From an uncultured bacterium (GTDB lineage Bacteria; Verrucomicrobiota; Kiritimatiellia; UBA8416; CAMZLY01), in the NCBI GenBank assembly GCA_947311825.1, contig CAMZLY010000179.1, positions 1-32,345 on the forward strand: a stretch of 32,345 bases of DNA, read 5' to 3'. Below the pieces are notes generated by a model. It was given only the letters and a program-made list of their open reading frames with translations, had not been told where the DNA came from and made no database searches. A program made the position numbers and the translations under genes. Numbering within the stretch: position 1 is the first letter of the stretch; each line of letters starts with the position of its first letter. Shown here in pieces: positions 14,366 through 32,345 of the stretch.

Positions 14366-16759
14366 ATGCATTGGATTGATTGGTTAATTGTTGCAGTTCC
14401 GTTGGTTATTGTGTTTTTTGTTGCCTTAAGAGCACAAAGTTATATTAAAGGTGTTTCTGATTTTCTGGCGGGAGGACGTGTTGCTGGGCGATATGTTCTT
14501 ACTGTTGCCGGTGGTGAGGCTGGTATGGGGCTAATCAGTCTTGTTGCAATGTTTGAGGCTTATTATAATTCTGGGTTTGCATATAGTTTCTGGAGCGGAA
14601 TAGCTATGCCGCTTGGAGTTATTATGTTGTTAAGTGGATATTGTATTTACCGATTTCGTGAGAGTCGGGCATTTACGATGGGGCAATTCTTCGAAATGAG
14701 GTATAACCGTAAATTCCGGGTTTTTGCTGCGATTTTACAGTCTTTTTCAGGGGTACTCAATTATGCTATTTTTCCGGCAGTAGGTGCAAGATTCCTTATA
14801 TATTTTTGTGGTTTGCCACTAAATGTCGAAATCTTAGGTATGACGTTCCCTACTTTTGGTCTAGTAATGGTTGTATTTTTATCTGTGGCTGTCGCAATTG
14901 TGTCTCTTGGCGGTCAAATAACAATTATGGTAACTGACTGTATTCAGGGTATTTTAAGTTATCCGTTATATGCAATTATTGTGATTTATATTCTTTTACG
15001 AATTTCATGGTTTGACCAAATGGCACCGACACTGCTTGACCGTCCTGCCGGTATGAGTATGGTTAATCCGTTTGATATTGATAAACTGCGTACCTTTAAT
15101 TTGTTTTATATATTTGTTGGTATTTTTAGCAGTGTGTTTAATCGTATGGCATGGTCAGGTACGCAAGGGTATAACGCTGCGGCCTTAAATGCTCATGAGC
15201 AGAAAATGGGAGCAGTATTAGGAACATGGCGATCTGGTTTTGCACTTATGATGTATATATTATTAGCAATCGCTGGTTATACATTTTTAAATAATATTGA
15301 TTTTGCAAAAGATGCAAAAATATGCCGTCAGGAATTGGCAACCAAAGTTGTGTCAGATGTCGTCGCTAATAGTGCGGCGGACATAGAGATAAAGAATGCA
15401 TTACATGGGTATATAGAAACGGGAGTATTATCTGATGAATTAAAGAGTAAGTTAGTGGAGCCAGTTGCTAAAGATTCAAAAGAGCCTTTGCGCGACACTG
15501 TTAATCATATTTTGGCATCCACTGATAAGAAATCAGCACAAAGTTTTAACACTATATTCAATCAGATGCGTGTTCCTTATGCATTAAAACATCTTTTCCC
15601 TGTAGGCGTTATGGGTGTATTTTGTGCTTTGTGTATTTTTCTTTTGATAAGCACTGATACCACTTACATGCATTCTTGGGGTAGTATTATAGTGCAAGAT
15701 GTTATACTTCCTATAAGGGGTAAACCATTTACCCCTAAACAACAGTTGAGATTATTAAGGCTTATTATAGCAGGTGTTGCAGTATTTGCTTTTTTGTTTT
15801 CATTTTATTTTGCTCAGATAGATTTTATATTAATGTTTTTTGCTATTACTGGAGCTATATGGCTGGGGGGGGCTGGTCCATGTATTGTTGGGGGGTTATA
15901 TTGGAAGAAAGGAACGTCTGCCGGAGCATTTTCTGCTCTTATATCAGGCTCAACAATAGCAACAACGGGCGTGATTATGCAGAAAATATGGGCTCCGCAT
16001 ATATATCCTTGGTTAGAAACTAGTGGACATTTAGAAATTGTTAGAAAAGTTTTGGAAGGTATTTCTCATCCATTCGAACCGTATATTATGTGGCGTGTAA
16101 CGCCAGATGCGTTTCCGATAAATTCGCAGGAAATATATTTTATAGCAATGGTTATAGGAATCTTTCTTTATATTACCGTTTCATTAATTACATGTAAGGA
16201 GCCTTTTAATATGGATCGGTTATTGCATCGTGGTGCATATCAGCGTGAAGGTGATAACATAGTACGTGAGAAACTTGGATTTAATAATATATTAATAAAG
16301 TTATTGGGGATTGATTCGCAATATACTAAGGGTGATAAGGCAATTGCAATATCAGTATTTATATGGTCTTTTGGTTGGGGCTTCGGTAGTTTTGCCGTTT
16401 TATGTATCTGGAATGCCATATCACGTTGGCCCGATTCTTGGTGGATAAATTGGTTTTTGGTCGCAAATATAATCATCCCTGGTATAATAGCTGTTGTTTC
16501 CACTGTATGGTTTACTATTGGTGGTGTTGTTGATTTGTGCAGATTATTTAAAAGGTTATCGGAAGAACAGTCTAGTGTTCTGGATGATGGACGCGTGATT
16601 GGTAACGTTAGTGCTGATGATGTTGCTTTAGTTGAAGAAGTTGAGAAGATCACAATAGAAGAAGCTCATGTTGAAGAACAAGAGTTGGAAGAAGCTCTTG
16701 CAAAAGAGGGTGATGATGACGACCTTGATAAATTAAAACATCAACTTGGTGATGATTAA
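14366..16759 (+). CDS. Sodium:solute symporter (SSS family) with soluble insert and acidic tail
   Basis: The protein is a polytopic SSS-family (SGLT-like) importer expected to take up a sugar, polyol or similar solute with Na+. Typical early features are DFLAGGRVAGRY and AGGEAGMGLISLV, then many membrane helices. At 797 residues it is far longer than the roughly 500-600 typical of the family. Two additions explain this: a hydrophilic insert at about 311-407, rich in Lys, Glu and Ala, and extra C-terminal helices followed by a strongly acidic cytoplasmic tail (about 750-797, with EEVEK, EEQELEEALAKE and DDDD). It sits directly after the Gfo/Idh gene and before a CBM9-like lipoprotein, which makes it the likely importer for the cluster. 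Which solute is unknown. Confidence 0.88.
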   Translation: MHWIDWLIVAVPLVIVFFVALRAQSYIKGVSDFLAGGRVAGRYVLTVAGGEAGMGLISLVAMFEAYYNSGFAYSFWSGIAMPLGVIMLLSGYCIYRFRESRAFTMGQFFEMRYNRKFRVFAAILQSFSGVLNYAIFPAVGARFLIYFCGLPLNVEILGMTFPTFGLVMVVFLSVAVAIVSLGGQITIMVTDCIQGILSYPLYAIIVIYILLRISWFDQMAPTLLDRPAGMSMVNPFDIDKLRTFNLFYIFVGIFSSVFNRMAWSGTQGYNAAALNAHEQKMGAVLGTWRSGFALMMYILLAIAGYTFLNNIDFAKDAKICRQELATKVVSDVVANSAADIEIKNALHGYIETGVLSDELKSKLVEPVAKDSKEPLRDTVNHILASTDKKSAQSFNTIFNQMRVPYALKHLFPVGVMGVFCALCIFLLISTDTTYMHSWGSIIVQDVILPIRGKPFTPKQQLRLLRLIIAGVAVFAFLFSFYFAQIDFILMFFAITGAIWLGGAGPCIVGGLYWKKGTSAGAFSALISGSTIATTGVIMQKIWAPHIYPWLETSGHLEIVRKVLEGISHPFEPYIMWRVTPDAFPINSQEIYFIAMVIGIFLYITVSLITCKEPFNMDRLLHRGAYQREGDNIVREKLGFNNILIKLLGIDSQYTKGDKAIAISVFIWSFGWGFGSFAVLCIWNAISRWPDSWWINWFLVANIIIPGIIAVVSTVWFTIGGVVDLCRLFKRLSEEQSSVLDDGRVIGNVSADDVALVEEVEKITIEEAHVEEQELEEALAKEGDDDDLDKLKHQLGDD

Positions 16760-17632: not shown

Positions 17633-18523
17633 TTACTTAAATACACGTTCAAAGTTTTTGTGCATTATGTTTTCGTAAACTGTTTTTGATATTTTCTTTT
17701 CTTTTAGAGCATTTTGCATCATGGGGAGATGTTCCGGTGGATTTTTCTTTTTCATAAACATATCGGTGCCAAAAAAGATTTTCTTATTAAATTTCTTTAG
17801 AAATTCAATACCTTTTTCAGGGTCGCGAGTAAGTGCATTATGTCCGCTACCAGCGGAAAAGTCACCGTATAGATTGGGGTATGTTTCCATTAATGTCCAA
17901 AGTCGTCCTTTGTTTTTTATCGGACCTTTAGGGTAGCCGTTTCGATCTTTTGGGGTGATTACATCAGCATCATTTGAATTCCAGAATGATGGGGCATGAC
18001 CAATAAAAATGGTTTTCGGGAATTCTTTTAATACTTCTTCAAGTCCGGGTAGTCCAGGCTTATCTATCATTCCGTACAGTCCGCCTTTTTTTGGTGACAG
18101 ATGAAACAGTATCGGCATTTTCTGTTCACCCGCATGATAAAAAAGATTTTTATATAGTGGATTGGTTACCGGCATATTAGCACATACTTCTCCAATACCT
18201 TTACACCCGAGATCCTTGAATAATTTCATTAGTCCGGAAAAATCTGCTTTAGGATTATTCATAATTGATCTTGGATCGATATTGCAAAATGGAATCAGTC
18301 GGTCTGAATGTTTTTGACATTCAGTAATGGTTTCCTGATTGCCTGTTACACCGAAGTAATCAATATTATCCGGGTTTGTCAATGGCAGTATAACGGATTT
18401 GTCAATTCCCCATTTGTCCATGTCTTTTAGCAGATCTTTGGCAGTAAACGAACCGTGTGCAACTAGTTTGCTGAATTGCGGATATTTTGCGTAAGTTATA
18501 TGTTGATGAATATCTATTATCAT
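17633..18523 (-). CDS. Amidohydrolase-family (Amidohydrolase_2) metal-dependent hydrolase
   Basis: The 296-residue TIM-barrel protein belongs to the amidohydrolase_2 group. It shows the N-terminal metal motif HxH (His6 and His8 in DIHQHI), Glu112 (GIGEVCA), His141 (ILFHLSP), His176 (FIGHAPS) and the final Asp254 (FFGTDMF), a complete-looking metal set. Relatives hydrolyse lactones, amides or decarboxylate aromatic acids; the substrate is not evident. Its ATG overlaps the Gfo/Idh stop by four bases (ATGA), implying translational coupling, with GGGAG eight bases upstream. The partner dehydrogenase suggests oxidation of a sugar to a lactone followed by hydrolysis here. Confidence 0.88.
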   Translation of the reverse strand: MIIDIHQHITYAKYPQFSKLVAHGSFTAKDLLKDMDKWGIDKSVILPLTNPDNIDYFGVTGNQETITECQKHSDRLIPFCNIDPRSIMNNPKADFSGLMKLFKDLGCKGIGEVCANMPVTNPLYKNLFYHAGEQKMPILFHLSPKKGGLYGMIDKPGLPGLEEVLKEFPKTIFIGHAPSFWNSNDADVITPKDRNGYPKGPIKNKGRLWTLMETYPNLYGDFSAGSGHNALTRDPEKGIEFLKKFNKKIFFGTDMFMKKKNPPEHLPMMQNALKEKKISKTVYENIMHKNFERVFK

Positions 18524-19557
18524 AATATTATCTCCCTCTTTTCTTTTGCTGATTGATATATGGCAGAAATTATTTCTACCGATTTGCGTCCTTCGTAACC
18601 GTTTACTTCCGGCTCAGTATCTGTCTTTATTGCATTGATCATATCTTCAAGTTGAAGCTGATGTCCTTTTGAGTCAATAAATGCGGTTGGGTCTTTTGCT
18701 CCGCTTGAATTTGTGCTGGAGAATTTATTTTTAATTTCAACATCTTCATCAGTGGACTTTTGGAAAGCCCATACTTTTAATGCTTCACCTTCAAGAACAA
18801 TACTTCCGTCTGAGCCATGTATGCCAAGCCTTGTATCCAGTCCGGGATATGCAGTAGTTGTTCCTTGGATAGTGCCTAAAGCACCATTTTTAAATTTAAG
18901 AACAGCCACGGCGGTATCTTCAACTTCAATATTGCGAGCTAAAGTCTCGCAATAAGCATAAACGGACTCAACAGGCCCCATGAAGTTTTGTAATTGGTCT
19001 ATGTAGTGGATGGATTGGTTCATTAATGCTCCGCCGCCATCAAACTGCCACGTGCCGCGCCAACCTCCTGCATCATAGTATGCCTGATCACGAAACCATT
19101 TTACCTGAACATCAGCCATAGTTATTTTTCCAAAACGTCCTGCATCTATAGTCTTTTTAATGGCTAATGATGATTCTTTAAAACGGGTGGGAAATATTAC
19201 TGCCAGCTTTACATTGTTCGTTTCGCAGGCTGAAATTATAGCATCACATTTTTCCAGTGTTATATCTAATGGTTTTTCAACGATAATATGTTTTCCCGCT
19301 TCTGCTGCTTGAATAGCAAATTCTTCATGCATGCTACTAGGCAAGCATATATTGACAACATCAATATCATCTTGTTTAAGCATTTCAGCATAATCGGTAT
19401 ATGCGGTTGCTCCCGATGTCGCAGCTAAGGCTTTTGCGTTAGTTTCAAATTTATCGCAGACAGCAACCAGTTTTGCGTCATTAATGTTGTTTAGTGCATC
19501 GGCATGGAATGGGGCAATATTACCGCATCCCACTATTGCAAATCTAAAAGTATTCAT
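18520..19557 (-). CDS. Gfo/Idh/MocA-family NAD(P)-dependent oxidoreductase
   Basis: The 345-residue protein has GCGNIA at 10-15 in the Rossmann domain, EKP at 94-96, and the catalytic GGGALMNQSIHYID with His184 and Asp187, all standard for Gfo/Idh/MocA sugar dehydrogenases. The GGG-N-H-ID form is closer to classical sugar or UDP-sugar oxidoreductases than the family member at 13186, so the two are not recent duplicates. It lies six bases after a DegT-type aminotransferase and overlaps the following amidohydrolase, forming a tight three-gene unit. A dehydrogenase next to a DegT aminotransferase can make amino sugars (oxidation then transamination) or act in their breakdown; the sequence does not decide which. 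Confidence 0.92.
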   Translation of the reverse strand: MNTFRFAIVGCGNIAPFHADALNNINDAKLVAVCDKFETNAKALAATSGATAYTDYAEMLKQDDIDVVNICLPSSMHEEFAIQAAEAGKHIIVEKPLDITLEKCDAIISACETNNVKLAVIFPTRFKESSLAIKKTIDAGRFGKITMADVQVKWFRDQAYYDAGGWRGTWQFDGGGALMNQSIHYIDQLQNFMGPVESVYAYCETLARNIEVEDTAVAVLKFKNGALGTIQGTTTAYPGLDTRLGIHGSDGSIVLEGEALKVWAFQKSTDEDVEIKNKFSSTNSSGAKDPTAFIDSKGHQLQLEDMINAIKTDTEPEVNGYEGRKSVEIISAIYQSAKEKREIIL

Positions 19558-19563
19558 TTTATG

Positions 19564-20895
19564 TTATCCCTTTCGTTTTGTTAAATTCCAAGAATCTTTT
19601 ACTTCATTAGAGTTATTATCACCTGGCAGTAAGTCTGAATAGTTTTCGCAAACTTTTTTGATGGCGTTAATATATTGATTAATAATGTTTTTGTCAAAAT
19701 GTTTCATGTATGGTAGGCGTAGTATTCGCTGACTAAGAGTTGCCGCTATCGGTAGGTTTTGTTGATCTCCTTTGTTTACTATCCCATCCGGTAAGTTTGC
19801 TGAATTAGTTGGTTTGCCATGATTATAAACATCAATTGTGCTAAATAGCGGATGTTTGTGTAGTGGTGCATTTACACCAGGGCTAGTGTTTATTCCTTCG
19901 GCAACTAGTGCGTCGCTAAATCTCTGTATAGATAATCCTCCGAGTTCTTCTTTTTTATAAAGAGCGACAGGGATATACCAACCGCCTTTGGTTGAGCCTG
20001 AGTCCTTTGCCGGACGATGTGCCTTTATTCCTGGTGTGCCTTCTAACTTGTCCCAGAAATAGGTGTAGATTTTGTCAATCTCTGCACTCTCTGCCGGATA
20101 TTTCTTGAGCTGTTCAAGTCCGACGGCGGCGGACATCTGGTGCATTCTGTACTTGAAGCCTCCGTTTGGTAGGTGAATTCGATGTTTCAATTCTTCATCT
20201 TCTATTTCGCTATGTCGTGCATATATACCGAATAGAATTGCTCTTTCATAAACTTCACGGTTATTTGTTAGTAACATTCCTCCTTCGCCAATAGCAAAAG
20301 ATTTACCTGTCATGCAGGAAAATCCAGCGACATCGCCGAATGTTCCGGTAAGTTTGCCTTTATATAATGTTCCATGGGAGTGTGAGCAATCTTCAATAAC
20401 TTTGATATTATGCTTTTTGGCTATTCCCATTATGCGGTCCATATCGGCAGGATGGGATAGGTAGTGTACAACAACAACTGCTTTTGTACGCTCGGTAATT
20501 TTGCGTTCAAAATCATCGGGATCTAGGCAGAGAGAGTCTGGTTCGATATCGGCAAAGACTACGGATGCACCAAGGTTTTGGGCTTGAATACATGATGCCC
20601 AATATGTTATGGATGGGCAAATTAATTCGTCTCCAACGCCAAGTCCTACACCGTACATCGCCGTATGTAGTGCTGCAGTGCCAGAGCTGTGGGCAAGTCC
20701 GTATTTTACATTATGCCATTCAGCAAACCCCGCTTCAAATTTCTTTGAAATATCTAGACCGGACATATTCCCGTCTCTCAGTACCTCGATAATTGCATCT
20801 TCCATTGCCTGGTTTACAATAGGCCAGTGAAACATCTCTTTTGATGCTTTAATTGTTACTTCTTTTTCGCCGCCTAATAGTGCTAATTTACTCAT
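19564..20895 (-). CDS. DegT/DnrJ/EryC1-family PLP-dependent aminotransferase
   Basis: The 443-residue protein has the fold type I pattern of DegT/DnrJ/EryC1 sugar aminotransferases: SSGTAALHTA near 70-79 for the PLP phosphate, Glu168-Asp169 in VIEDCSHSHG for the pyridine nitrogen, and Lys198 in CMTGKSFAIGEGG as the Schiff-base lysine. It should act on a keto-sugar or similar ketone. The start is supported by AAGGAG six bases upstream. A fifteen-copy 16-mer array begins about fifteen bases upstream of the ATG, so its leader consists largely of repeats. The gene is separated from the other DegT gene only by the GxxExxY gene and the two arrays. Confidence 0.92.
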   Translation of the reverse strand: MSKLALLGGEKEVTIKASKEMFHWPIVNQAMEDAIIEVLRDGNMSGLDISKKFEAGFAEWHNVKYGLAHSSGTAALHTAMYGVGLGVGDELICPSITYWASCIQAQNLGASVVFADIEPDSLCLDPDDFERKITERTKAVVVVHYLSHPADMDRIMGIAKKHNIKVIEDCSHSHGTLYKGKLTGTFGDVAGFSCMTGKSFAIGEGGMLLTNNREVYERAILFGIYARHSEIEDEELKHRIHLPNGGFKYRMHQMSAAVGLEQLKKYPAESAEIDKIYTYFWDKLEGTPGIKAHRPAKDSGSTKGGWYIPVALYKKEELGGLSIQRFSDALVAEGINTSPGVNAPLHKHPLFSTIDVYNHGKPTNSANLPDGIVNKGDQQNLPIAATLSQRILRLPYMKHFDKNIINQYINAIKKVCENYSDLLPGDNNSNEVKDSWNLTKRKG

Positions 20896-21980: not shown

Positions 21981-22189
21981 TTCTGTCAAAAATTTCCGTC
22001 GAGCGTCACATGATTTTGTCATAAAATTACTCTGTCAAAAATTCCCGTCGAGCGTCATATGATTTTGTCATAAAATTATTCTGTCAAAAATTCCCGTCGA
22101 GCATCATATGATTCTGTCATAAAATTATTCTGTCAAAAATTTCCGTCGAGCGTCACATGATTTTGTCATAAAATTACTCTGTCAAAAAT
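21981..22189. repeat. 49-bp tandem array (four full copies plus a partial) containing the inverted 16-mer
   Basis: Units start at 21981, 22030, 22079, 22128 and 22177, a fixed period of 49; the fifth stops after 13 bases, where it enters the DegT coding sequence. On the minus strand each unit reads the 3' end of that gene (TTTTTGACAGARTAA, including its stop), then TATGACARAATCATRT, then GACGCTCGACGGRAA (GATGCTCG in the third unit). The array therefore seems to have grown by duplicating the last codons of the DegT gene with adjoining sequence. A degenerate, internally deleted copy lies at about 21968-21980. The embedded 16-mers match variants of the 20911-21150 array exactly but on the opposite strand. 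Confidence 0.95.
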
Positions 22190-23424
22190 GCATTTTCAAT
22201 CTTTTTAAATGCTCCAACAATTTCTTTCACTTCCTTTTCTCCCCAACTTTCCCAAATGACCAGATTAAAATAGTTATCCATTACAGTCATTGCGTTAGGA
22301 ATAGGGAATTCTATATTTGAATTGCCTTTATATAATGGGTTGTTCCAAGGGTGCTTGTCGGCACGATTTTGGAACCAATCACAAGTAGTAGGAAGTGCAG
22401 CTCGATAACTTGGGTTCATTAGCACGCCTTCTGCCATAACTGCGGCACAGAATTCATCTTTAGTGCAGGTCAGATTTTTGCTATTTACTTTTAGTCTCCA
22501 CCACCAGTAAGAGTGTTCGTTGCCTTGCTGGATTTCCGGAATGGTTATTGATTGCAAGTCTGCGAAACCGTTATCTTTTAATAGTTGTACTACTTTTTGC
22601 CGGCGGGCAACGATGTCTGGAAGTTTTTTTAATTGCTGGCGACCGATTGCGGCATGTAGTTCGTCCATATTGCAGTTAAGTGAAGATGAGACATTTCCAT
22701 TTGAGTCGTCGATACCAAAAGGTTTGCCACGGTCTGCGGCACGGCGTATAGACCAGTATAAATCCTCATTTTTGGTAAAAACCATTCCACCTTGTCCACC
22801 ACAACAAAAATGTTTACCGAACATAATAGAGAAGGCACTTACATCGCCAAATGTGCCTACATATTGTCCGTTGATTTTAGCTGCATGAGATTGCGAACAA
22901 TCTTCGACCACGGGTAGATTATGTTTTTTGGCAACAGCCATGATGCCCGGCATATCGGCCGGTTCACCGCCAATGTGAGGAATAACAATCGCAGAGGTGC
23001 GTGGTGTGATGGCTGCTTCTACTTGTTCCGGTCCCGTATTATAAGAATCAGGTCGAGAGTCAATAATAATAGGGATGCAAGAGTTCATAGTGATTGGCAT
23101 GATGCCGCCCGGATCATTGACAGCTGCGACTATAACTTCAGAAAAAGGTTCAAGGTTAAGTGAGCGGATTGCGACAAAGACTGAGTTAGTGCCAGAATTA
23201 ACACCATCGGCATAGCCACCGCCAAGAAACTCAGCAAATTCCTTGCAGAACAGTTCTTCCTGTTCGCCGTTATATCCAAAAGCATTGCCACTGGCAATAG
23301 AGGCATCAAACAATGCCATTGCCGCCATTTTTTCCTCTTCGCCAAGATGTCCGCGAGAAGGGAATGTTGCTGTTATTGCAAGTGAGCCTCCGTTAATGGC
23401 AAGATTTTCTTTTGATGCAGTCAT
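22174..23424 (-). CDS. DegT/DnrJ/EryC1-family PLP-dependent aminotransferase
   Basis: The 416-residue protein has the DegT hallmarks: VNSGTNSVFVAI near 75-86, Glu174-Asp175 in VVEDCSQSHA, and Lys204 in IMFGKHFCCGGQGG as the PLP lysine. It is only distantly similar to the DegT protein at 19564. The ATG at 23424 is chosen because AAAGG lies about eight bases upstream and the protein then begins MTASKENLAINGG, a typical family start; an in-frame ATG at 23520 would add 32 unmatched residues and cover the candidate operator. Its last codons and stop are the seed of the 49-bp array. It is divergent from a GntR-LacI-type regulator that probably controls it. Confidence 0.9.
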   Translation of the reverse strand: MTASKENLAINGGSLAITATFPSRGHLGEEEKMAAMALFDASIASGNAFGYNGEQEELFCKEFAEFLGGGYADGVNSGTNSVFVAIRSLNLEPFSEVIVAAVNDPGGIMPITMNSCIPIIIDSRPDSYNTGPEQVEAAITPRTSAIVIPHIGGEPADMPGIMAVAKKHNLPVVEDCSQSHAAKINGQYVGTFGDVSAFSIMFGKHFCCGGQGGMVFTKNEDLYWSIRRAADRGKPFGIDDSNGNVSSSLNCNMDELHAAIGRQQLKKLPDIVARRQKVVQLLKDNGFADLQSITIPEIQQGNEHSYWWWRLKVNSKNLTCTKDEFCAAVMAEGVLMNPSYRAALPTTCDWFQNRADKHPWNNPLYKGNSNIEFPIPNAMTVMDNYFNLVIWESWGEKEVKEIVGAFKKIENAFLTE

Positions 23425-23458
23425 AATGATACCTTTTATGTTATAGTTTACTTTCTCT

Positions 23459-23471
23459 AACCCAATGGGTT
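23459..23471. promoter_or_regulatory. Perfect 13-bp palindrome in divergent intergenic region, candidate operator
   Basis: AACCCA-A-TGGGTT is a perfect inverted repeat about 35 bases upstream of the DegT start and about 138 bases upstream of the divergent regulator gene. Regulators with LacI-like effector domains bind as dimers to such sites, so this is the best operator candidate for the adjacent regulator. No well-matched sigma-70 promoter was placed beside it. Confidence 0.35.
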
Positions 23472-23609
23472 TCTTGTTCCAATATGTGGATAATGTTTCA
23501 TAAATATTATTTATTAGCAAGTAATTATTAATATATTGTATTTTTTTCTTGTGTTGTTCGTGTTAATTAGAGATATTGTTGCTTCGTACAGATAAGAGAT
23601 AATATTATT

Positions 23610-24752
23610 ATGAGTAAAAAAAGAATAGAAGATGATGCTTATATGCCTGATAGTTTTGCGGGTGTAGCCCAATGGGTTGAGAGAAAATTACGGGAGGATA
23701 TTGGGCGAGAGTTTTATCCCGAGAATTCATTTTTACCTTCGCAAAGGATTTTATCTGAACAACTTGGTGTGCCGCGCAGTGCAATTAGAGTTGCATTGGA
23801 GAAGCTAATGCAATCAGGTTTAGTTGATGCGTGTCGCGGGCGGGGTACTAGGGTTTTGCCAAAGGGGGAACGTAAAGTTCAGCAGACAATAGCATATATT
23901 CATTCTCCGCTTAGGTCATGGTCAGGTTTAGAACCGCATCACATAAGAGATGGTGTTTTGCGTCGTTCTCAGCAGTTGGGCTGTAATTGCGTTGAAATAA
24001 GTGTTTATGACTCCGACGGAATGCCGTCAATGCATGGTGAGACAGCTCGTCCTGTTAGTATTAAAGAGTTGCCGGAAGTTTTGAAAGAGTATTCCGCTTA
24101 TATATTCCATGAAGCAAGTTCTATAATGACTAGATTTATAGTTGAATTGGTTGATGATAATAAGCCGGTTGTTGTTGCTAACCTTGAAACAGAGCTTAAT
24201 GTTTCGGCAACATGTGTGGATCATTTTGCAATAGGAAAGAAGGCTGTGGAAACAGTAGCATCTTTTGGTCATCGGCATATTGCGTATGTTGGAAAATTTC
24301 CGGAGCAAGTATTTTATGGGAAATATTTAGCTGGATTTCGTGAAGGGATTAAGGTGGCAAATCTTGAAATAGATGAAGCAAATATTGCATTGTGTAAAAA
24401 TATTGATTTACTTGATGCTTATAGAGCTACATTATTATTGCTTAAACGGTCAGATGCACCGACAGCTATTGTTGCCGCTCGTGATTCACTTGCCGCTGGA
24501 GTTTGTGAGGCAATTAGGGAAGTTGGCTTGGAGGTAGGACGTGATATTTCTGTAGTTGGATTTGATGACGTAAGCTGGGGTGGGGCGAATCCATTTTTAA
24601 CTACATTTCATGAGCCCTGTACTGAAATGGGGGCTGTTGCAGTCGATATGTTGATGGCTCGTATTAGTAACTCTAATTTACCAATAGAACAACATTTATT
24701 AGATGTATCTCTTGTTTTACGGCGTAGCGTTGGTCCTCTGTTAGTACTTTGA
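23610..24752 (+). CDS. GntR-LacI-type transcriptional regulator
   Basis: The 380-residue protein combines an N-terminal GntR winged helix (about 17-84: FLPSQRILSEQLGVPRSAIR, then VALEKLMQSGLVDACRGRGTRV) with a C-terminal LacI/periplasmic-binding-like effector domain (about 92-380), seen in IAYIHSP, AVETVASFGHRHIAYVG, AIVAARDSLAAGVCEAIRE and DISVVGFDDVSW. This is the AraR-like arrangement used by sugar-responsive repressors. It is transcribed divergently from the DegT/GxxExxY/DegT/Gfo-Idh/amidohydrolase block and is the obvious local regulator; the secreted-protein block downstream is an alternative target. The ligand is probably a sugar or sugar derivative, by family only. The ribosome binding site is weak. 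Confidence 0.9.
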   Translation: MSKKRIEDDAYMPDSFAGVAQWVERKLREDIGREFYPENSFLPSQRILSEQLGVPRSAIRVALEKLMQSGLVDACRGRGTRVLPKGERKVQQTIAYIHSPLRSWSGLEPHHIRDGVLRRSQQLGCNCVEISVYDSDGMPSMHGETARPVSIKELPEVLKEYSAYIFHEASSIMTRFIVELVDDNKPVVVANLETELNVSATCVDHFAIGKKAVETVASFGHRHIAYVGKFPEQVFYGKYLAGFREGIKVANLEIDEANIALCKNIDLLDAYRATLLLLKRSDAPTAIVAARDSLAAGVCEAIREVGLEVGRDISVVGFDDVSWGGANPFLTTFHEPCTEMGAVAVDMLMARISNSNLPIEQHLLDVSLVLRRSVGPLLVL

Positions 24753-24973
24753 AAATCCCATAGATCTCACAGGTAAATATTCAAATAATGTCAGTGAATT
24801 ATGCTTTATTTTGAATTCTGATCAATGAATTCTATTGTGATTATTTGTCGGAGAAAATATGGTTGTAATTGGAGGTATAGTATGTAATGTATATGTTTTA
24901 TAGTTCTTTTTTTTAGAGGTTGTAAATATTTGAGGTATGATTTGTGTGTTTTGGATTAAATGAAGTTAGATAT

Positions 24974-24986: not shown

Positions 24987-26171
24987 GTGAAGAATGATAG
25001 AAGTGTGGTTTTGTTTTGTTTGATAGTTGGTGTTTTTATCAATACAGTAAGTGCTATGAATGTTTATAGAACTCAACCAAATAAAACTATAAAGGTGACG
25101 ACAGGTACTAGGTATGGGCAGGTTAATGTAGGTGATGTAAATACTGACGGTAAAAAAGATATTATCGTTTCTCTTTACCCTAAAAAGAAGATTAATAAAG
25201 CTGGAGATTTTGTGGGGTATGACAAAAAAGGATCTTTGATGATCTTTTTTCAGAAGGCAAGAGGTGGTGGCTTTTCTGTAAAGCCTGATTTAATAATTCC
25301 GGCAGAGAAAGAGCCAAGGGGAGTTGTTGTTAAAGATGTTGATGGTGATTCTAAAAACGATATCATCTACAATGATTACCGAGAAAATCTATATATATGT
25401 TATGCTAAAAATGAATTCAGATCGCAGAAATATTGTGATATAAATATGCGTTCTGGTAGCCTTGTTGATGTAAATCTTAATAATAGTCTTACCAATAAAT
25501 TAGCAGCCTCTTTTCTTTCTCATGCAGTGTGGTGGCGAGTATTGAAAGATGGTACTAGTGTTGAAAAAACATATATTGCTAGACCACCGGATAATAAATC
25601 AGGTAGTCCGGCAGTAGGTGATTTAAATGCTGATGGTGAAACTGATTTAGTGTATGCCGAAAGAAAAACCCTTTATTTATATTACGGGCCGTTTAGACCT
25701 GCAGATATTTTGAATCCAAGTATGTTGAAAAAGCATACTATTATGAATACAACATTAGGTGCCGGATATATTAATGGTGTTTCTTTAAATGACTTTAATG
25801 GCGATAACCTTACCGATGTTGCAATAAACGTAGAAGAAATGGGGATATTATTTCTCAACCAAGATACAGAAGGAGAATTTAAAGAAGATGCTTCAAAAAA
25901 GATTGAAGGTGACTTTTTAAAGATTTTAACGACCGATATTAATAATGACAAGCTAGACGATGTTGTTGCTATAGCCGGTAATTGTAGTATGGTTAAAATC
26001 TTTTTACAGAAAAAAGAAGTTGGTTTTGTAAAAAAAGAAAAAAATGCAGATCAAACTATAAAAATAAATCAAGCATATGATATAATTATCGACGATATTA
26101 ATGATGATAATAAAAATGATTTGCTTGTTTTAAGTTCGAAGGGTAAATTGATGATATATTACGCAAGATAA
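24987..26171 (+). CDS. Secreted VCBS/FG-GAP repeat protein (beta-propeller), paralog 1
   Basis: The 394-residue protein starts at GTG with a signal peptide (VVLFCLIVGVFINTVSA) and then carries at least six repeats built around calcium-binding-like D-x-N/D-x-D-G/x loops: GDVNTDGKKDI, KDVDGDSKNDI, GDLNADGETDL, NDFNGDNLTDV, TDINNDKLDDV and DDINDDNKNDL. This pattern is typical of FG-GAP/VCBS seven-bladed propellers, which bind ligands or act as surface scaffolds. It has no catalytic motif that I can recognise. A closely related gene follows at 26295, with shared segments such as KEPRGVVVKDVDGD and TYIARPP, indicating tandem duplication. It opens the plus-strand block of exported proteins. The exact role is unknown. 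Confidence 0.85.
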   Translation: MKNDRSVVLFCLIVGVFINTVSAMNVYRTQPNKTIKVTTGTRYGQVNVGDVNTDGKKDIIVSLYPKKKINKAGDFVGYDKKGSLMIFFQKARGGGFSVKPDLIIPAEKEPRGVVVKDVDGDSKNDIIYNDYRENLYICYAKNEFRSQKYCDINMRSGSLVDVNLNNSLTNKLAASFLSHAVWWRVLKDGTSVEKTYIARPPDNKSGSPAVGDLNADGETDLVYAERKTLYLYYGPFRPADILNPSMLKKHTIMNTTLGAGYINGVSLNDFNGDNLTDVAINVEEMGILFLNQDTEGEFKEDASKKIEGDFLKILTTDINNDKLDDVVAIAGNCSMVKIFLQKKEVGFVKKEKNADQTIKINQAYDIIIDDINDDNKNDLLVLSSKGKLMIYYAR

Positions 26172-26174
26172 GAT

Positions 26175-26200
26175 GTTATTGATTGAAATAACCTTTTTTT
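26175..26200 (+). terminator. AT-rich hairpin followed by a T-run, possible intrinsic terminator
   Basis: GTTATT-GATTGA-AATAAC forms a six-base stem directly after the first VCBS gene and is followed by C and seven Ts. The stem is short and weak, so this may attenuate rather than stop transcription into the paralog downstream. Confidence 0.45.
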
Positions 26201-26294
26201 GCAAGTACCTCTAGTTTAGGTTAATAAGTTGAGTGCTGGCAGGTAAGTTTAATAGCATGTATGTGCGGTAAGAGGACAGGGAGTATAATAAGTT

Positions 26295-27410
26295 ATGAAG
26301 AGTATTATTTGTTTAGTATGTATTATGGTTTTTATAAATGTATCTTATGCTAAAAACATTTTTCCATTAAAGCCTAGTGAAACAATTTTTATGAGAAGTA
26401 ATATTGAGTATTCGGATGTTAATGTTGGAGATGTCAATAATGATAAGAGGCAAGATATAATTGTATCTGTTTATGAGAATAGTTTAACAAAAGGTTCTGT
26501 TGATGTCTTTTATAAAAAGAAGAAAAAGTTCAGTTCAAAACCTAGTTTTAGTATTCAAATAAAAGAGCCGCGCGGGGTTGTCGTCAAGGATGTAGACGGA
26601 GATAGGAAAAATGATATAATTATAAATGAAAGAAAAGAAAATCTTTATTTGTGCTGTGCGAAGAACGATTTTAAGCCACAAAAATATTCTGATGTAAATA
26701 TGCGGTCGTATGATTTGTTGGATGTTAATTTAAATACCTTTAATAAAGATATGGTATCGGTTCTTTCTGCGGCGACATGGTGGAGAATTGCTAAGGATGG
26801 TACAGTTAAAAAAACATATATTGCACGTCCTCCATCAAATGTTTCCGGACTTCCGGCGGCTGCAGATTTTAATAAAGATAGGATTATTGATTTAGTATTT
26901 CCTACAAAGCTAAAAGTGCTTATTTATTATGGTCCATTTAAGCCGGTTGGTGTACTTACTCCAAAGATGCTAGTTAAGCACTCGATAATTGAACTAAAAA
27001 ATAAGATTTTATCAGTCTATACCGGAGATTTTAATGGCGACAGTAAACAAGATATTGCGGTCTACCAGCCTGGCGTAGGTATTTCATTCTACTGTCAAAA
27101 AGCTAATATGGGGTTTAGTAATAAGGCATCTTGTTGTATTGCCGGTAAGTTTCAAGATATAAAATCGGCTGATATAAATAAGGATAAACGGGATGATATT
27201 GTTGTTATAGATAGTAATTTGGGTTCCATAAGGGTATTTTTACAAAAAACTGACGGAACGTTTGCCAACTCAATACTTGATGCTGATCAGGTTCTTGTTG
27301 GAAAGAAGTATTATAAGCTTAATATAAATGATGTAAATAATGATGGAGTGAAAGATTTGATTGTTGCGGGTTATGGCAATTTTATTGATGTTTATTATGG
27401 TCGAAAATAG
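26295..27410 (+). CDS. Secreted VCBS/FG-GAP repeat protein (beta-propeller), paralog 2
   Basis: The 371-residue protein has a signal peptide (SIICLVCIMVFINVSYA) and the same repeat plan as the gene before it: GDVNNDKRQDI, KDVDGDRKNDI, ADFNKDRIIDL, GDFNGDSKQDI, ADINKDKRDDI and NDVNNDGVKDL. Shared landmarks in the same order (KEPRGVVVKDVDGD, NLYLCCAKN, TYIARPPSN, YYGPFKP) show that the two are duplicates that have since diverged; several glycine positions of the loops are replaced here. AGGGAG lies eleven bases before the ATG. Its 3' end overlaps the next gene's start by fourteen bases, suggesting coupled translation. Function beyond a secreted propeller is not evident. Confidence 0.85.
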   Translation: MKSIICLVCIMVFINVSYAKNIFPLKPSETIFMRSNIEYSDVNVGDVNNDKRQDIIVSVYENSLTKGSVDVFYKKKKKFSSKPSFSIQIKEPRGVVVKDVDGDRKNDIIINERKENLYLCCAKNDFKPQKYSDVNMRSYDLLDVNLNTFNKDMVSVLSAATWWRIAKDGTVKKTYIARPPSNVSGLPAAADFNKDRIIDLVFPTKLKVLIYYGPFKPVGVLTPKMLVKHSIIELKNKILSVYTGDFNGDSKQDIAVYQPGVGISFYCQKANMGFSNKASCCIAGKFQDIKSADINKDKRDDIVVIDSNLGSIRVFLQKTDGTFANSILDADQVLVGKKYYKLNINDVNNDGVKDLIVAGYGNFIDVYYGRK

Positions 27411-28842
27411 AAAAAATCTTATCAGAATCAGCTTATTACTTATTGGAGTGGTGGCTAATTCTTTTGCGACGACTTGGTATGTAGATGCATCTAAGGCTGA
27501 TAATAGTGGGCTCGCAACAAACTGGGCAACTGCAGTGCGGGATATTCAGGCTGCCGTTGATATGGTGAGTGATTATGATAAAATATTAGTAACAAATGGG
27601 CTTTATAATCAAGGTGGGGCGGTTTCTGATCTTGACAGTACGATGACGAATCGTGTAGCTCTTAATAGTAATCAAAAATTTATTGTGATAGAAGCTGTTA
27701 ATAAAGGGCTTGATGATACAATTATTGAGGGGGCTCCTGATTATGGTACAGGGGGGGCTGGTCCAGGGGCAATAAGGTGTTTTCATGGTAATGTTCATAA
27801 TGGTAATTCTGATGATACAGTTGTATTAAATGGCTTTACTTTGCGGAATGGATATACCAAATATTCAGGGGTATTCTGGGCTGATCAAGCAGGTGGTGCC
27901 ATTCATAGTGCTCGAGCTACTAATTGCTGGTTTTATAGCAATCATGGTTATAATGGTGGTGGTGCCTGGGCATATAGTCAACTTAGAGATTGCCATGTTT
28001 TTAATAATTCTGCTTGGCAGGGTGGGGCCGGTTTAATGGGAGAGGTTTGGGGTTCTGTCATTTATAATAATTATGCTAGTCGTCAAGGTGGGGCGGTTTC
28101 TGGCTCAATATTACATAGTTGTACAATAAGTAATAACGCTGCAAATACCAAGGGTGGAGCTATCTATGGTGGAAGTGAGGTTTATTATTGTTTTATAATA
28201 GATAATTATAGTGACCAGAATGCTGGTGTTTTTGAGAATGCTTGTGTTGTAAGCAACTGTATAATTAGTCACAATACGTCAGTGGGAACGGGGGCAGTGG
28301 GGTTTCAATATAGTAGTGATTCTAGGTCGTATATTTATAATTGTTTAATTAAAGATAATATTGCGATAGGCGGACAGGGGAGTGCCATTTGGGGGAATAT
28401 AACTGTTGTTAATAGTACTATAGTGAATAATAAATCTTCTATTCCGGGGCAAACTGCCGGTTTAAACGGTAATGATGGTTCTCTTATCGCTATTAACTCT
28501 ATTGTGTATGGAAATACAAATATCACTGATGAAGTGGAAAATAACTATACCACCAATTTATCAAAAATGGTAAACTGCTTGACGTCACCTACTCCTACGG
28601 GAATGCCGTTTGATGGTGGTGGAAATATAACTGGGGCTCCATTGTTTTTAGATGATGCCTGTCATTTAGCTAATAATTCACCGGCTGTCGACTCGGGAAT
28701 AACTACTAATGTGATTAGCATTGATATTGATAGGGTTGTACGCCCTTTAGACGGCAATAACGATGGTAGTTCTTTGTATGACATTGGGTGCTACGAGCAT
28801 ATTTATGTAAGACCTAATATCAGTTTCCTGGTCATAAAATAA
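27397..28842 (+). CDS. Secreted right-handed beta-helix protein with choice-of-anchor Q-like C-terminus
   Basis: The 481-residue protein begins with a signal peptide (ISLLLIGVVANSFA) followed by TWYVDASKADNSG, NWATAVRDIQAAVDMV and KILVTNGLYNQGG, the usual opening of pectate-lyase-like beta-helix proteins in this group. Repeated coils each carry a GGA-type turn (GGAIHSA, GGGAWAYS, GGAGLMG, GGAVSGSI, GGAIYGG). The end (SPAVDSGITTN, DIDRVVRPLDG, YDIGCYEH) matches the choice-of-anchor Q pattern. It is probably a surface or secreted polysaccharide-binding or lyase-like protein; no catalytic residues can be assigned. The ATG at 27397 lies inside the end of the preceding gene (fourteen-base overlap), chosen because it gives a proper signal peptide. 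Confidence 0.82.
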   Translation: MVENRKNLIRISLLLIGVVANSFATTWYVDASKADNSGLATNWATAVRDIQAAVDMVSDYDKILVTNGLYNQGGAVSDLDSTMTNRVALNSNQKFIVIEAVNKGLDDTIIEGAPDYGTGGAGPGAIRCFHGNVHNGNSDDTVVLNGFTLRNGYTKYSGVFWADQAGGAIHSARATNCWFYSNHGYNGGGAWAYSQLRDCHVFNNSAWQGGAGLMGEVWGSVIYNNYASRQGGAVSGSILHSCTISNNAANTKGGAIYGGSEVYYCFIIDNYSDQNAGVFENACVVSNCIISHNTSVGTGAVGFQYSSDSRSYIYNCLIKDNIAIGGQGSAIWGNITVVNSTIVNNKSSIPGQTAGLNGNDGSLIAINSIVYGNTNITDEVENNYTTNLSKMVNCLTSPTPTGMPFDGGGNITGAPLFLDDACHLANNSPAVDSGITTNVISIDIDRVVRPLDGNNDGSSLYDIGCYEHIYVRPNISFLVIK

Positions 28843-28857
28843 AAAATTCAAGAAAAT

Positions 28858-30582
28858 ATGAAAAAATGTATAAACAACTTTATTTTAATAATAGTATTAT
28901 TTAGTAGCGGTACATTTTTATATGCTATTCCTCCTATTCCTCCCGTAGTGTATGTTGCTGGTGATGGTAGCGGAGATTACAATTGTAATGGAAGTGATGA
29001 TCAGGATAAAATTAATGATGCTATTGATTTTGTATCTAAAAATATAAGATTTACAACGGTTTATTTGAAAGGCAAATATACTTATAGAATAAAAAATTCT
29101 ATTAATATTCCAGAAGGTACAGAAATAACAATTGCAACAAATGCAAAAGTGGAATCACCAAAATCGCCAATAATCTATGTAGCCGGTGATGGTAGTGGTG
29201 ATTATAATTGTGACGGGCAGTCTGATCAGGAAGAGATTAATGCCGCATTGGATTTTGTTGCTGAGAATCCTGAGTTCACAACGGTATATTTAAAAGGGGG
29301 ATATACTTACTGGATAGATGAACCCATTGTCATTTCAAGCAATACAAAATTAGCTGGCGATGAAACAGCGAAAGTTCAGTTAATAGATAATGCCCCATGG
29401 CCTGTTAACAAGCCGATGATAAGGCAGAAAGGTCCTGAGCGTTGGAAAGAGTCATTGGTAAATGCCATTTACGGTACAGAAAATGATTCTATAACTAACT
29501 CTGAAATATGTGGTTTTGAAATATCAGGTGGTGTAAACTATGATAAGCCAATAGGAAGCTGGTATTTGATTCTAATGATATTTTATACTGCTTCTGATCT
29601 TAAGGTTCACGATATGAATCTGCATGATAGTCGTGGTGATATTATTAGAATTATGTCGCAAGCACCCGGCATTATGAAAAATATAAAAATATATAATAAC
29701 TATATGGAAAATTCTGGGCATGAAGGGGTTTATTTTGCATTTGTTACAGATGTTGAAGTGTATAATAATAAAATTCGTATTACTAATACCAATTGCGGGA
29801 TTAGGCTTTCGCAATGTAGCAATATTTCTATTTATGGAAATACAATAGGAAATAACTTAACCACTGTCGCATCAGGGTATGCAGGGGTTTTATTGGAGAA
29901 TGGTGGAATATTAATTGGTACATGTGAAATATATAATAACTTTATCTATGGTAAATGTCCTGGTATAGCTATTGAGTCAACGTATCCAGATAAAAATTTA
30001 AAAGATGTGCATATTCATCACAATAGAATCTACAGAGCATTTAATAATACAGCTTGTTCTGTTCAATATTGTAATGGAGGAATTCATTTGCACGGTACTC
30101 ATAATACAATAATAGAATTTAACACCATAGAAAGTAGTTATAAGGATGGCATTGTATATGAAGTTGATTCGGGTAATGAAACTGGATATCAAACTATAGT
30201 ACGCAATAATATTATTGCTAATTCTTCAGGATACGGAATTAATAATCTTGCAACTTCTCAACATTCTTTTATTTGTGAATATAATGATGTTTATAATTCT
30301 CAACAAGGTAATTACAACAATGCTTCTTCTACCAGTGATATCCATTTGGCTCCATCTTTCCTTATGAGTACCGGAACAGTTTCTGATATTATCAACCTTC
30401 ACCTAAAATCAGAATATGGGAGTTGGAACGGTTTATCTTGGACAAACAGTGCAATAACTAGTCCTTGTATAGATCAAGGGGATCCATTATTAGACTTTTC
30501 AAAAGAACCTTTACCTAACGGAGGAAGAGTTAATTTAGGTGCCTATGGAAATACAATAACTGCAAGCAAGAGTTCGATGTGA
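28858..30582 (+). CDS. Secreted beta-helix protein with duplicated N-terminal module, disaggregatase-like
   Basis: The 574-residue protein has a signal peptide (about 1-23) and then two adjacent 75-residue modules, both starting YVAGDGSGDYNC (32-43 and 107-118) and containing FTTVYLKG. A parallel beta-helix region follows (about 200-480) with short coils such as DLKVHDMNLHDSRGD, NIKIYNNYMENSGHEG, DVEVYNNKIRITNTNCGIRL and NISIYGNTIGNN, and it ends with an SPCIDQGDP/NLGAYGN segment. The module and helix wording closely recall, from memory, Methanosarcina disaggregatase-related proteins, which act on cell-aggregate polysaccharide. A glycan-cleaving or glycan-binding role outside the cell is therefore likely but unproven. 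Its stop overlaps the next gene's GTG start by four bases. Confidence 0.8.
   Translation: MKKCINNFILIIVLFSSGTFLYAIPPIPPVVYVAGDGSGDYNCNGSDDQDKINDAIDFVSKNIRFTTVYLKGKYTYRIKNSINIPEGTEITIATNAKVESPKSPIIYVAGDGSGDYNCDGQSDQEEINAALDFVAENPEFTTVYLKGGYTYWIDEPIVISSNTKLAGDETAKVQLIDNAPWPVNKPMIRQKGPERWKESLVNAIYGTENDSITNSEICGFEISGGVNYDKPIGSWYLILMIFYTASDLKVHDMNLHDSRGDIIRIMSQAPGIMKNIKIYNNYMENSGHEGVYFAFVTDVEVYNNKIRITNTNCGIRLSQCSNISIYGNTIGNNLTTVASGYAGVLLENGGILIGTCEIYNNFIYGKCPGIAIESTYPDKNLKDVHIHHNRIYRAFNNTACSVQYCNGGIHLHGTHNTIIEFNTIESSYKDGIVYEVDSGNETGYQTIVRNNIIANSSGYGINNLATSQHSFICEYNDVYNSQQGNYNNASSTSDIHLAPSFLMSTGTVSDIINLHLKSEYGSWNGLSWTNSAITSPCIDQGDPLLDFSKEPLPNGGRVNLGAYGNTITASKSSM
28951..29385 (+). repeat. In-gene tandem duplication of a 75-codon module
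   Basis: Codons 32-106 and 107-176 align without gaps at protein level (GDGSGDYNC, DQ, IN-A-DFV, FTTVYLKG, YTY). DNA identity is clearly lower because of many synonymous changes, so the duplication is old or both copies are maintained by selection. In remembered relatives only a single copy is usual. Confidence 0.8.
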
Positions 30583-31355
30583 AAAATATAGATTGCAAAC
30601 GTATAGATGTACACTATCACATTTTAGACCGTAGAACGTATGGTTGGGAAAATGATTGGAAACAATCTGTTGAGGATGCAGATAAACTGGAAATAGATCA
30701 GCTTTGTATATCCATTCTTCCTGAAAATAAATGTGCTAATCCGAGTGAATTTCGCCAAGTTAATGATGATGTTTTACAGGCAATGAAAGATTATCCAGGG
30801 CGATATTTAGGATATGCATTTGTTAATCCTGGTTATACAAGAAAGGCCGTAGAAGAAGTGGAACGCTGCATAAGAGCAGGAATGATAGGCGTAAAACTTT
30901 ATTCTGCATATACAATAGATGATCCTGTAACTGAACCCGTAATAGAAAAATGTATTGATCTTGGCGTGCCTATTCTTATGCATGCAGGATATGCACATAT
31001 AGACATGGGGCAACCATCAATATCTACGGCACTTCATTTTACAAATATTGCTAAAAAATATCCTGAAGCAATGTTTATTGAGGCACACATAGGGGGTGGT
31101 GGTGATTGGGAGTGGTCAATTAAAGAGCTAAAGAAATGTCCTACTGTTTTTTTAGATACTGGCGGAAGTGTTATTGATGATGGTATGATAAATATGGCGG
31201 TTAAAGAATTAGGGGTTGAACGACTGTTGTTTGCAACTGACTGCTCTATTTATTCTGGCGTTGGTAAAATTCTTGGAGCAAGATTAACAGAGCAACAGCG
31301 CAGGAAAATATTTTCAGAGAATTTCAAGAATATTTTATCTAAAAGAAAGCTTTAG
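30579..31355 (+). CDS. Amidohydrolase-family (Amidohydrolase_2) metal-dependent hydrolase
   Basis: The 258-residue TIM-barrel protein keeps a full set of amidohydrolase_2 landmarks: His12-x-His14 (VHYHI), Lys106 (GVKLYSA), His135 (ILMHAGY), His170 (FIEAHIG) and Asp221 (FATDCS). It has no signal peptide, so it is cytoplasmic, unlike the four exported proteins before it. It starts with GTG, overlapping the preceding stop by four bases (GTGA), a clear sign of coupled translation; the next gene starts two bases... that is, one base after this stop plus one. The coupling suggests that the secreted beta-helix protein releases something this enzyme helps to degrade, which is inference from position only. 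Confidence 0.88.
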   Translation: MKNIDCKRIDVHYHILDRRTYGWENDWKQSVEDADKLEIDQLCISILPENKCANPSEFRQVNDDVLQAMKDYPGRYLGYAFVNPGYTRKAVEEVERCIRAGMIGVKLYSAYTIDDPVTEPVIEKCIDLGVPILMHAGYAHIDMGQPSISTALHFTNIAKKYPEAMFIEAHIGGGGDWEWSIKELKKCPTVFLDTGGSVIDDGMINMAVKELGVERLLFATDCSIYSGVGKILGARLTEQQRRKIFSENFKNILSKRKL

Positions 31356-31356
31356 A

Positions 31357-32127
31357 ATGAAAAAACTTTTTGATTGTAATGCCCATATAGGGAATTGGCC
31401 ATTTAGAAAATTACATAATAATAACGCAATGGGATTACTGAGAATGATGGATCGTTCTGGTATAACTAATGCAGTTGTCTCTTCCATTGATGCAATTTTT
31501 TATAAAAACTGTCAACCTGGAAATGTTGAAGTTTTTCGTCAGATTAAAAAATATCGTGAACGTTTATTCCCGTTTGCTGTTATTAATCCATATTATGCAG
31601 GTTGGCAAGAGGATTTAGAAGAATGTGTGGGAAAATATAATATAAAAGGGATAACTATTTACCCAAGCATTCATGGATATTCCTTAAAGGATGATTGTGC
31701 AGATGAACTTATGGTAAAGGTGAAAGAGTATAAAATACCGGTTGCCATATCATTAAGAATAGTCGATCCCCGTCAAGGGCATTGGCTTTTTCAAGTACCT
31801 AACATAAATATAGAAGATTTGGTATGTTTTACTAAGAAACATTCTGAAGTCTCATTTATTATTAGGGATGTAGAAACGGAAATAATAGATAAGAAACTCA
31901 TAAAAATTAATAATTGTTATTTTGATATTTCCAGAATAAATTTTTGTGAAAAAGATATTCTCAAAAAGTTAATTACAAAAAGTAGTGTTGATCGATACCT
32001 TTTCGGTAGCCAAATTCCATTTAAAGATCCTACTCCGGCGATACTTAAATTGCAGTTAAGTAATATTACAAAAATAGAACGCAATAAAATAGAGTTTAGA
32101 AATTTAGAAAATCAGATAAAATCTTGA
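31357..32127 (+). CDS. Amidohydrolase-fold protein lacking metal ligands, probable pseudoenzyme
   Basis: The 256-residue protein follows the gene before it at once (one base between TAG and ATG) and shares its layout, with FDCNAHIGNW at the N-terminus, FPFAVINPYY, and a final YLFGSQIPFKDP. The metal residues are mostly gone: the HxH motif is Asn8-x-His10, the region of the strand-5 His reads ISLRIVD, the region of the strand-6 His reads FIIRDVE, and the final Asp is Gln219. It is therefore probably not a metal-dependent hydrolase; it may be a regulatory or structural partner of the intact paralog, or use different chemistry. The frame is intact with no sign of decay, so the protein appears to be maintained. 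Confidence 0.8.
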   Translation: MKKLFDCNAHIGNWPFRKLHNNNAMGLLRMMDRSGITNAVVSSIDAIFYKNCQPGNVEVFRQIKKYRERLFPFAVINPYYAGWQEDLEECVGKYNIKGITIYPSIHGYSLKDDCADELMVKVKEYKIPVAISLRIVDPRQGHWLFQVPNINIEDLVCFTKKHSEVSFIIRDVETEIIDKKLIKINNCYFDISRINFCEKDILKKLITKSSVDRYLFGSQIPFKDPTPAILKLQLSNITKIERNKIEFRNLENQIKS

Positions 32128-32216: not shown

Positions 32217-32279
32217 AATGGTTGAAATGTTCTGGTTAAAGTCTTGCATTGTTAATCTAATAGGCTTAATTTTTCTCGT

Positions 32280-32345
32280 ATGAAAACAAGATTTGATCAT
32301 GAAAAGTTAGATGTATATCAAAAGGCTGTTCAATTTGTTGTTTGG
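32280..32345 (+). CDS. Four-helix-bundle protein (S23/IVP-like), start only
   Basis: Only the first 22 codons are in the window. They read FDHEKLDVYQKAVQFV after MKTR, the characteristic opening of the S23/IVP four-helix-bundle family, named from intervening sequences in 23S rRNA and related to the Avd accessory protein of diversity-generating retroelements. Most copies, including ones scattered through PVC genomes, have unknown function. Identification rests on this N-terminal signature alone. Confidence 0.75.
   Translation, partial: MKTRFDHEKLDVYQKAVQFVVW

Follow-up and report, generated by a model that had tools for sequence, protein, structure and literature searches.

Described systems and the AH1–AH2 locus

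Enzymes of the amidohydrolase fold are commonly regarded as single chains or homo-oligomers, and in pseudomonad aspartate transcarbamoylase an inactive dihydroorotase-like subunit serves as an obligate structural partner. The subject here is a pair of adjacent genes, AH1 and AH2, which close a six-gene operon in a stretch of 32,345 nt (the window) from an uncultured bacterium of the Kiritimatiellia, whose genome assembly comprises 2.5 Mb in 214 contigs. The favoured reading, given a probability of roughly 0.6, is that the operon serves the catabolism of a sugar polymer, in which AH1 (catalyst) and AH2 (pseudoenzyme) form an obligate hetero-oligomer, and in which two exported FG-GAP propellers (FG1, FG2) and two exported beta-helix proteins (BH1, BH2) act on an extracellular polymer. 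As a putative amidohydrolase-fold pseudoenzyme partner, AH2 is comparable to the dihydroorotase-like subunit, whose own partner, however, is of an unrelated enzyme fold rather than an active amidohydrolase.

The ACMSD/gamma-resorcylate decarboxylase group (Amidohydro_2, COG2159-like) is similar to AH1 and AH2 in fold and to AH1 in metal ligands, although the AH proteins are roughly 70 residues shorter and only ~14-19% identical to its members. Those enzymes are homo-oligomers with one active chain, whereas the partner chain here is a separate degenerate paralogue; they act on aromatic or muconate acids, whereas the gene context of the AH pairs points to sugars. ACMSD is an obligate oligomer that cannot do without an Arg contributed by the neighbouring subunit (PMC11650718), a precedent for inter-subunit contribution rather than a demonstrated equivalent of R139 in AH2. 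An equation of R139 with ACMSD R239* is not claimed, as R239 is close to H228 whereas R139 comes after strand 5, which makes the two seemingly non-equivalent.

In the twin-arginine (Tat) hitchhiker complexes, such as the Ni-Fe hydrogenases and formate dehydrogenases of E. coli and PaoABC, one subunit bears the signal (PMC10924467, PMC4273604). AH pairs are alike in having a signal on one subunit (40/101 pairs), although the window's own pair has no Tat signal on either partner; different from the hitchhikers, the signal switches partner over evolution, and export of the AH proteins is predicted from sequence.

Two further systems resemble the exported part of the operon. BH2 shares the Disaggr_assoc region with Methanosarcina disaggregatase-related proteins above the Pfam cut-off but matches no solved structure in sequence, and any activity on a methanochondroitin-like polymer is hypothetical. 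Polysaccharide utilisation loci likewise bring together a regulator with genes for exported proteins and for catabolism inside the cell, and a sister module of the window contains a GH84 enzyme; in contrast to such loci, no SusC/SusD pair was found in Pfam scans of the main open reading frames of the window (22 proteins), and no glycoside hydrolase (GH) or polysaccharide lyase (PL) family is assigned.

Metal-site residues and fold of AH1 and AH2

AH1, 30579..31355, + strand: cytoplasmic amidohydrolase (Pfam Amidohydro_2, 1.7e-25)
AH2, 31357..32127, + strand: AH1 partner of the same fold (Pfam Amidohydro_2, 5.5e-07)

AH1, which starts with GTG at 30579, has an intact metal site formed by H12-x-H14, K106, H135, H170 and D221. 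Among 102 sequences per partner, in which the window is counted twice, K106 is kept in 101 and the other five ligands in all 102. The AH1 model is a TIM barrel (predicted local distance difference test, pLDDT, 89), and AH1 presents the HxH, Lys, His, His and Asp in a TIM barrel that mark a catalytic site in the amidohydrolase superfamily. AH2 has the fold and fails in the ligands: the first His is replaced by Asn in 88/102 and the Asp by Ser or Thr in 99/102, and no conserved His follows strand 5 or 6. The original prediction of two amidohydrolase-fold proteins thus holds for the shared fold, but the lack of a canonical metal site in AH2 makes them an active/degenerate pair rather than two amidohydrolases.

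The residues conserved in AH2 are its own, namely D6, N8, W14-P15, P103, H106, Y108, D137, R139 and S218, with R139 and P103 in 102/102 sequences, D6 in 101, P15 in 100, Y108 in 99, D137 in 98 and H106 in 96. In the AH2 model (pLDDT 94.6) they follow strands 1, 4, 5 and 8, which form the active-site face of the barrel. Because these residues are near-invariant and so placed, AH2 is under strong selection despite the loss of the canonical site, and it may either shape the site of AH1 or have one itself.

The latter option would make AH2 a second enzyme with a non-canonical site (D6, N8, H106, Y108, D137, R139), carrying out consecutive steps with AH1 as a complex or channel. The position of the conserved residues on the TIM-barrel active-site face and the invariance of R139 fit this proposal, as does the fusion of AH1 and AH2 in some genomes, which is often seen for consecutive enzymes. 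The canonical ligands are all gone, however, with no proven alternative metal set visible, and a non-catalytic subunit accounts equally well for the one-sided Tat signals and matching trees described below, so a second enzyme is considered unlikely, if the most serious of the alternatives. In the preferred reading, catalysis would fall to AH1 and depend on its metal, while AH2, as a pseudoenzyme subunit, would be needed for stability, substrate binding or active-site completion; this assignment is strongly favoured.

For both models, the best Foldseek matches came from the ACMSD/gamma-resorcylate decarboxylase group (3s4t, 2dvt, 4ifk, 7pwy; TMq ~0.7-0.77). The relationship appears in fold (Foldseek E 2e-14) as well as in sequence (AH1 profile against the PDB, E 1.2e-11).

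Distribution of the AH1–AH2 module

A search with AH1 only uncovered 80 loci in Planctomycetota, Verrucomicrobiota, Acidobacteriota and Hydrogenedentota. An AH2-type gene lies alongside AH1 in 73 of them, directly downstream in 71 and upstream in 2, most commonly with a 4-nt overlap between the two genes; the remaining 7 loci lack AH2, and 2 of these are at contig ends. The AH2-only profile matched 157/289 genomes of the phylum at E 0.001, the weak end of which includes ordinary amidohydrolases, and among its best 30 loci AH1 is directly upstream in 28 (window included), once as a 527-aa fusion. Pairs in reversed order (L065, L066, L067) and natural fusions in both orders (L064, L191, L211) were also found. 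In the FastTree phylogeny the degenerate partners cluster together, as do most metal-site partners, with weak deep support.

AH1–AH2 is therefore an ancient and widespread two-gene module, with the metal site kept in AH1 and lost in AH2, and it is the most conserved part of the operon. That the two are independent redundant duplicates, of which AH2 is decaying, would agree with their common fold and the greater divergence of AH2. This idea is highly improbable, since the conservation pattern, with near-invariant residues in AH2 across several phyla, already contradicts it, a decaying copy would not stay beside AH1 in ~90% of loci, and the degenerate partners cluster in the tree, albeit with weak support.

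No description of paired amidohydrolases in bacteria of the Planctomycetota–Verrucomicrobiota–Chlamydiota (PVC) group was found in the literature searched, mostly without subscription journals. If the active/degenerate arrangement is true across phyla, many genes annotated as "amidohydrolase" would encode pseudoenzyme subunits, and AH1 expressed without AH2 may appear inactive.

The closest AH1 relatives (48-51%) are located in Planctomycetales clusters (L100-L103), which also contain one or two propeller-like proteins of ~650 aa, a C26 peptidase and further amidohydrolases.

Signs of a hetero-oligomer: trees and Tat signals

In total, 101 AH1–AH2 pairs were compared in their trees and Tat signals. 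The tree distances of AH1 and AH2 are correlated with r=0.94, where permutations reached 0.22 at most, and shared species history contributes to this correlation. AH1 alone bears a Tat signal in 17 pairs and AH2 alone in 23, and no pair has one on both partners (hypergeometric P 0.008, not tree-corrected), and by parsimony the signal status changed at least 11 times on the tree. In 29 of the 40 Tat-bearing pairs the unsignalled partner has 10 residues or fewer ahead of its domain and therefore cannot carry a signal.

On account of the matching trees, the natural fusions and the one-sided Tat signals, we infer strongly that AH1 and AH2 form an obligate hetero-oligomer of active enzyme and pseudoenzyme. 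The signal pattern further suggests co-export as one complex in some relatives, in which the folded AH1–AH2 complex would leave by the Tat route with the signal on one partner only. If so, the switching of the one-sided signal is a natural experiment on the assembly of a complex before export.

A Tat signal on an aminotransferase is unusual. DegT genes near Tat-signalled pairs nevertheless often have a Tat signal of their own, as if the pathway had changed compartments together. Apparent twin-arginine signals were seen on DegT enzymes dependent on pyridoxal phosphate (PLP) beside the AH pairs of L105, L107, L108, L110-L113, L122, L127 and L142.

The six-gene operon and its exported proteins

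Upstream of AH1 and AH2, the operon and its adjoining regulator gene comprise the following features.

REG, 23610..24752, + strand: GntR-type helix-turn-helix with a LacI/periplasmic-binding-type C-terminal domain (Pfam GntR, Peripla_BP_3); a 50% identical paralogue lies in the C150 cluster
FG1, 24987..26171, + strand: exported FG-GAP beta-propeller (Pfam FG-GAP_3, 2.8e-21)
FG2, 26295..27410, + strand: exported FG-GAP beta-propeller (Pfam FG-GAP_3, 6.9e-26)
BH1, 27397..28842, + strand: exported, probable beta-helix with a C-terminal choice-of-anchor Q-like segment (NCBIfam NF041518, just above cut-off)
BH2, 28858..30582, + strand: exported right-handed beta-helix whose C-terminal region is Disaggregatase-related (Pfam Disaggr_assoc 7.6e-38, Beta_helix, Pect-lyase_RHGA_epim)

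Four exported proteins followed by two cytoplasmic amidohydrolase-fold proteins had been predicted, and the six + strand open reading frames, their Pfam matches and their N-termini agree: judged by eye, FG1, FG2, BH1 and BH2 have Sec signal peptides of the ordinary type, which are absent from AH1 and AH2. The predicted fourteen-base overlap (FG2/BH1, -14), GTGA overlap (BH2/AH1, -4) and one-base gap (AH1/AH2, +1) are likewise all present, and the other two junctions are +123 nt (FG1/FG2) and +15 (BH1/BH2). FG1 starts with GTG at 24987, just 3' of AAGGAGG, in a frame open from an ATG at 24960, and REG, probably a sugar-responsive regulator, is directly 5' of it on the same strand. A scan of the window found promoter-like and terminator-like sites to be no commoner than in shuffled sequence; with these signals at chance level, the operon is called from its tight junctions and single orientation.

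FG1 is 48% identical to FG2 and 45% to the FG-GAP paralogue of C150. BH1 has no Pfam match, its sole match being the borderline NCBIfam choice-of-anchor Q domain. Against assigned PL and GH families, the only matches for BH1 and BH2 are generic ones to beta-helix, Pect-lyase_RHGA and Disaggr_assoc, and a solved-structure search for relatives returned no useful match for BH1 or BH2 and one weak propeller match for FG2. The N-terminus of BH2 (28933-29400) contains a 74-aa module in tandem duplicate with 57% identity.

Lineage specificity and same-genome paralogues

Conservation of the whole six-gene unit was rejected, as its exact order was found in none of the 56 relatives that were searched together with the window's own genome (57 genomes), and the unit is by these comparisons specific to its lineage. 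The original prediction had proposed to look for the same gene order in other genomes and would have yielded to neighbours nowhere conserved together; the six-gene order indeed fails there, but the AH1–AH2 pair does not. In the same genomes, FG2 and BH2 have no close homologue outside their own genome, and matches elsewhere are weak or partial repeats, those of BH2 mostly being short C-terminal repeats within giant proteins. Giant open reading frames of ~5900-6300 aa (G044:C5, G042:C31, G052:C11, G040:C155, G019:C55) match the C-terminal 60 residues of BH2 many times over and perhaps encode repetitive surface beta-helix proteins.

Close FG and BH homologues (>40% identity) are confined to the own genome, where they adjoin a GH84 glucosaminidase and a NagA-like gene. 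Contig C150 (L009, 7683-17885) encodes on one strand paralogues of BH1 (53%), FG-GAP (45%) and REG (50%), together with two GFO/IDH/MocA proteins, a glucosaminidase of GH84 type that includes a GH20b domain, and an Amidohydro_1 protein resembling NagA. Regulator, propeller and beta-helix therefore travel as a module with differing enzymes, and the C150 version looks like an N-acetylhexosamine catabolic locus by its gene content. Contig C109 (L012, 6805-10515) encodes a 1236-aa BH2 paralogue (42-45% identity) that has eight B-repeats of InlB type and ends in a Disaggr_assoc beta-helix. A shared operator for the REG paralogues was considered and left unused: the FG1–FG2 gap and the C150 BH1–GH84 gap share one 15-nt match with one mismatch around GCAAGNACCTCTA, with no palindrome.

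The lack of the six-gene order in the relatives searched, the presence of the REG/FG/BH1 module in the same genome without an AH pair and the choice-of-anchor Q-like end of BH1 would all suit a different explanation, in which the FG-GAP and beta-helix proteins serve surface display or adhesion and an unrelated AH1–AH2 metabolic pair came to lie downstream by chance in this lineage. The overlapping gene junctions speak against it, as do the GH84 and NagA-like genes beside the paralogous module and the other secreted lyase-like or FG-GAP proteins that adjoin AH pairs elsewhere. Display or adhesion is accordingly thought improbable, a little more so than a second enzyme in AH2.

Gene neighbourhood and the proposed pathway

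Further genes of the window that may belong to the pathway are as follows.

DegT-family PLP enzyme, 22174..23520, - strand: divergent from REG, candidate pathway member (Pfam DegT, 2.8e-65)
DegT-family PLP enzyme, 19564..20895, - strand: a 62-64% identical gene lies in the L212 AH-pair cluster and a 47-48% identical one near the L215 pair
GFO/IDH/MocA oxidoreductase, 18520..19557, - strand: adjoins DegT, candidate pathway member (Pfam)
AH3, 17633..18523, - strand: third Amidohydro_2 protein, overlapping the oxidoreductase gene (Pfam Amidohydro_2, 1.5e-07)
Sodium:solute symporter-family protein, 14366..16759, + strand: candidate uptake component (Pfam SSF); a 39% homologue lies upstream of the beta-helix/AH pair in L216

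The position directly downstream of AH pairs is occupied by DegT more often than by any other gene (13/51). In at least six other genomes, AH pairs adjoin FG-GAP, pectate-lyase-type beta-helix or heparinase-like proteins: a secreted FG-GAP protein in L210, Pect-lyase_RHGA beta-helices in L212 (two genes downstream), L216 and L217, and weak Hepar_II_III (heparinase II/III-like) matches in L214 and L215. The neighbours in L211 are a KDPG aldolase, a PfkB kinase, a 2-hydroxyacid dehydrogenase and an SDR, and those in the wider, largely Planctomycetota set are different, with Peptidase C26, nitrilase-type, cytochrome and DUF proteins. The DegT genes, with the KDPG aldolase and PfkB kinase of relatives, suggest sugar-acid or amino-sugar catabolism from extracellular polymers, and this gene context is a testable route into the carbohydrate catabolism of a poorly cultured group. 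The original idea of a polymer attacked or displayed outside and a product processed inside gains from the secreted polymer-type proteins adjoining AH pairs elsewhere and from the recurrence of the REG/FG/BH1 module with GH84 and NagA-like genes, while none of the relatives searched has the exact gene order.

In the sugar-polymer reading, FG1 and FG2 as well as BH1 and BH2 would bind an extracellular polymer, cleave it or do both; amino sugars and/or uronic acids are perhaps among its components. Its products would be imported and then processed by AH1–AH2, the DegT enzymes and the GFO/IDH enzymes, with the upstream regulator in control; both steps are proposed with moderate confidence. The substrate of AH1 can be guessed to be a sugar-acid or lactone-like intermediate, and the reaction to be of hydrolase, decarboxylase or isomerase type.

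Several points weigh against this reading. The physical contact of AH1 and AH2 is deduced from genomics; the Tat calls were made by a motif rule, with no trained predictor, and loci that are related to one another do not count as independent. The window's own exported proteins fall into no assigned GH or PL family, and the FG and BH homologues are too few for a catalytic-residue test. Because the neighbours of AH pairs in Planctomycetota and other groups are diverse, the substrate may also differ between lineages.

A bolder version, given somewhat less than even odds, describes AH1–AH2 as an undescribed enzyme of two paralogous amidohydrolase-fold chains, the active AH1 and an AH2 without a metal site, found across PVC bacteria and Acidobacteriota. 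The invariant Arg and Asp of AH2 would complete or gate the AH1 site, shifts between cytoplasm and periplasm would follow from a Tat signal gained on either chain, and the pair would form a new sugar-acid or amino-sugar route with DegT.

Other observations in the window

Between the two DegT genes, the window encodes a GxxExxY/PDDEXK_3 protein (21145-21945) of 266 aa, ~2x the usual length of the domain. Just 3' of the operon, a 37-64 bp stretch at 32237-32300 recurs with 83-100% identity in no fewer than seven further contigs of the genome and spans the start of a likely small four-helix-bundle open reading frame (MKTRFDHEKLDVYQKAV...).

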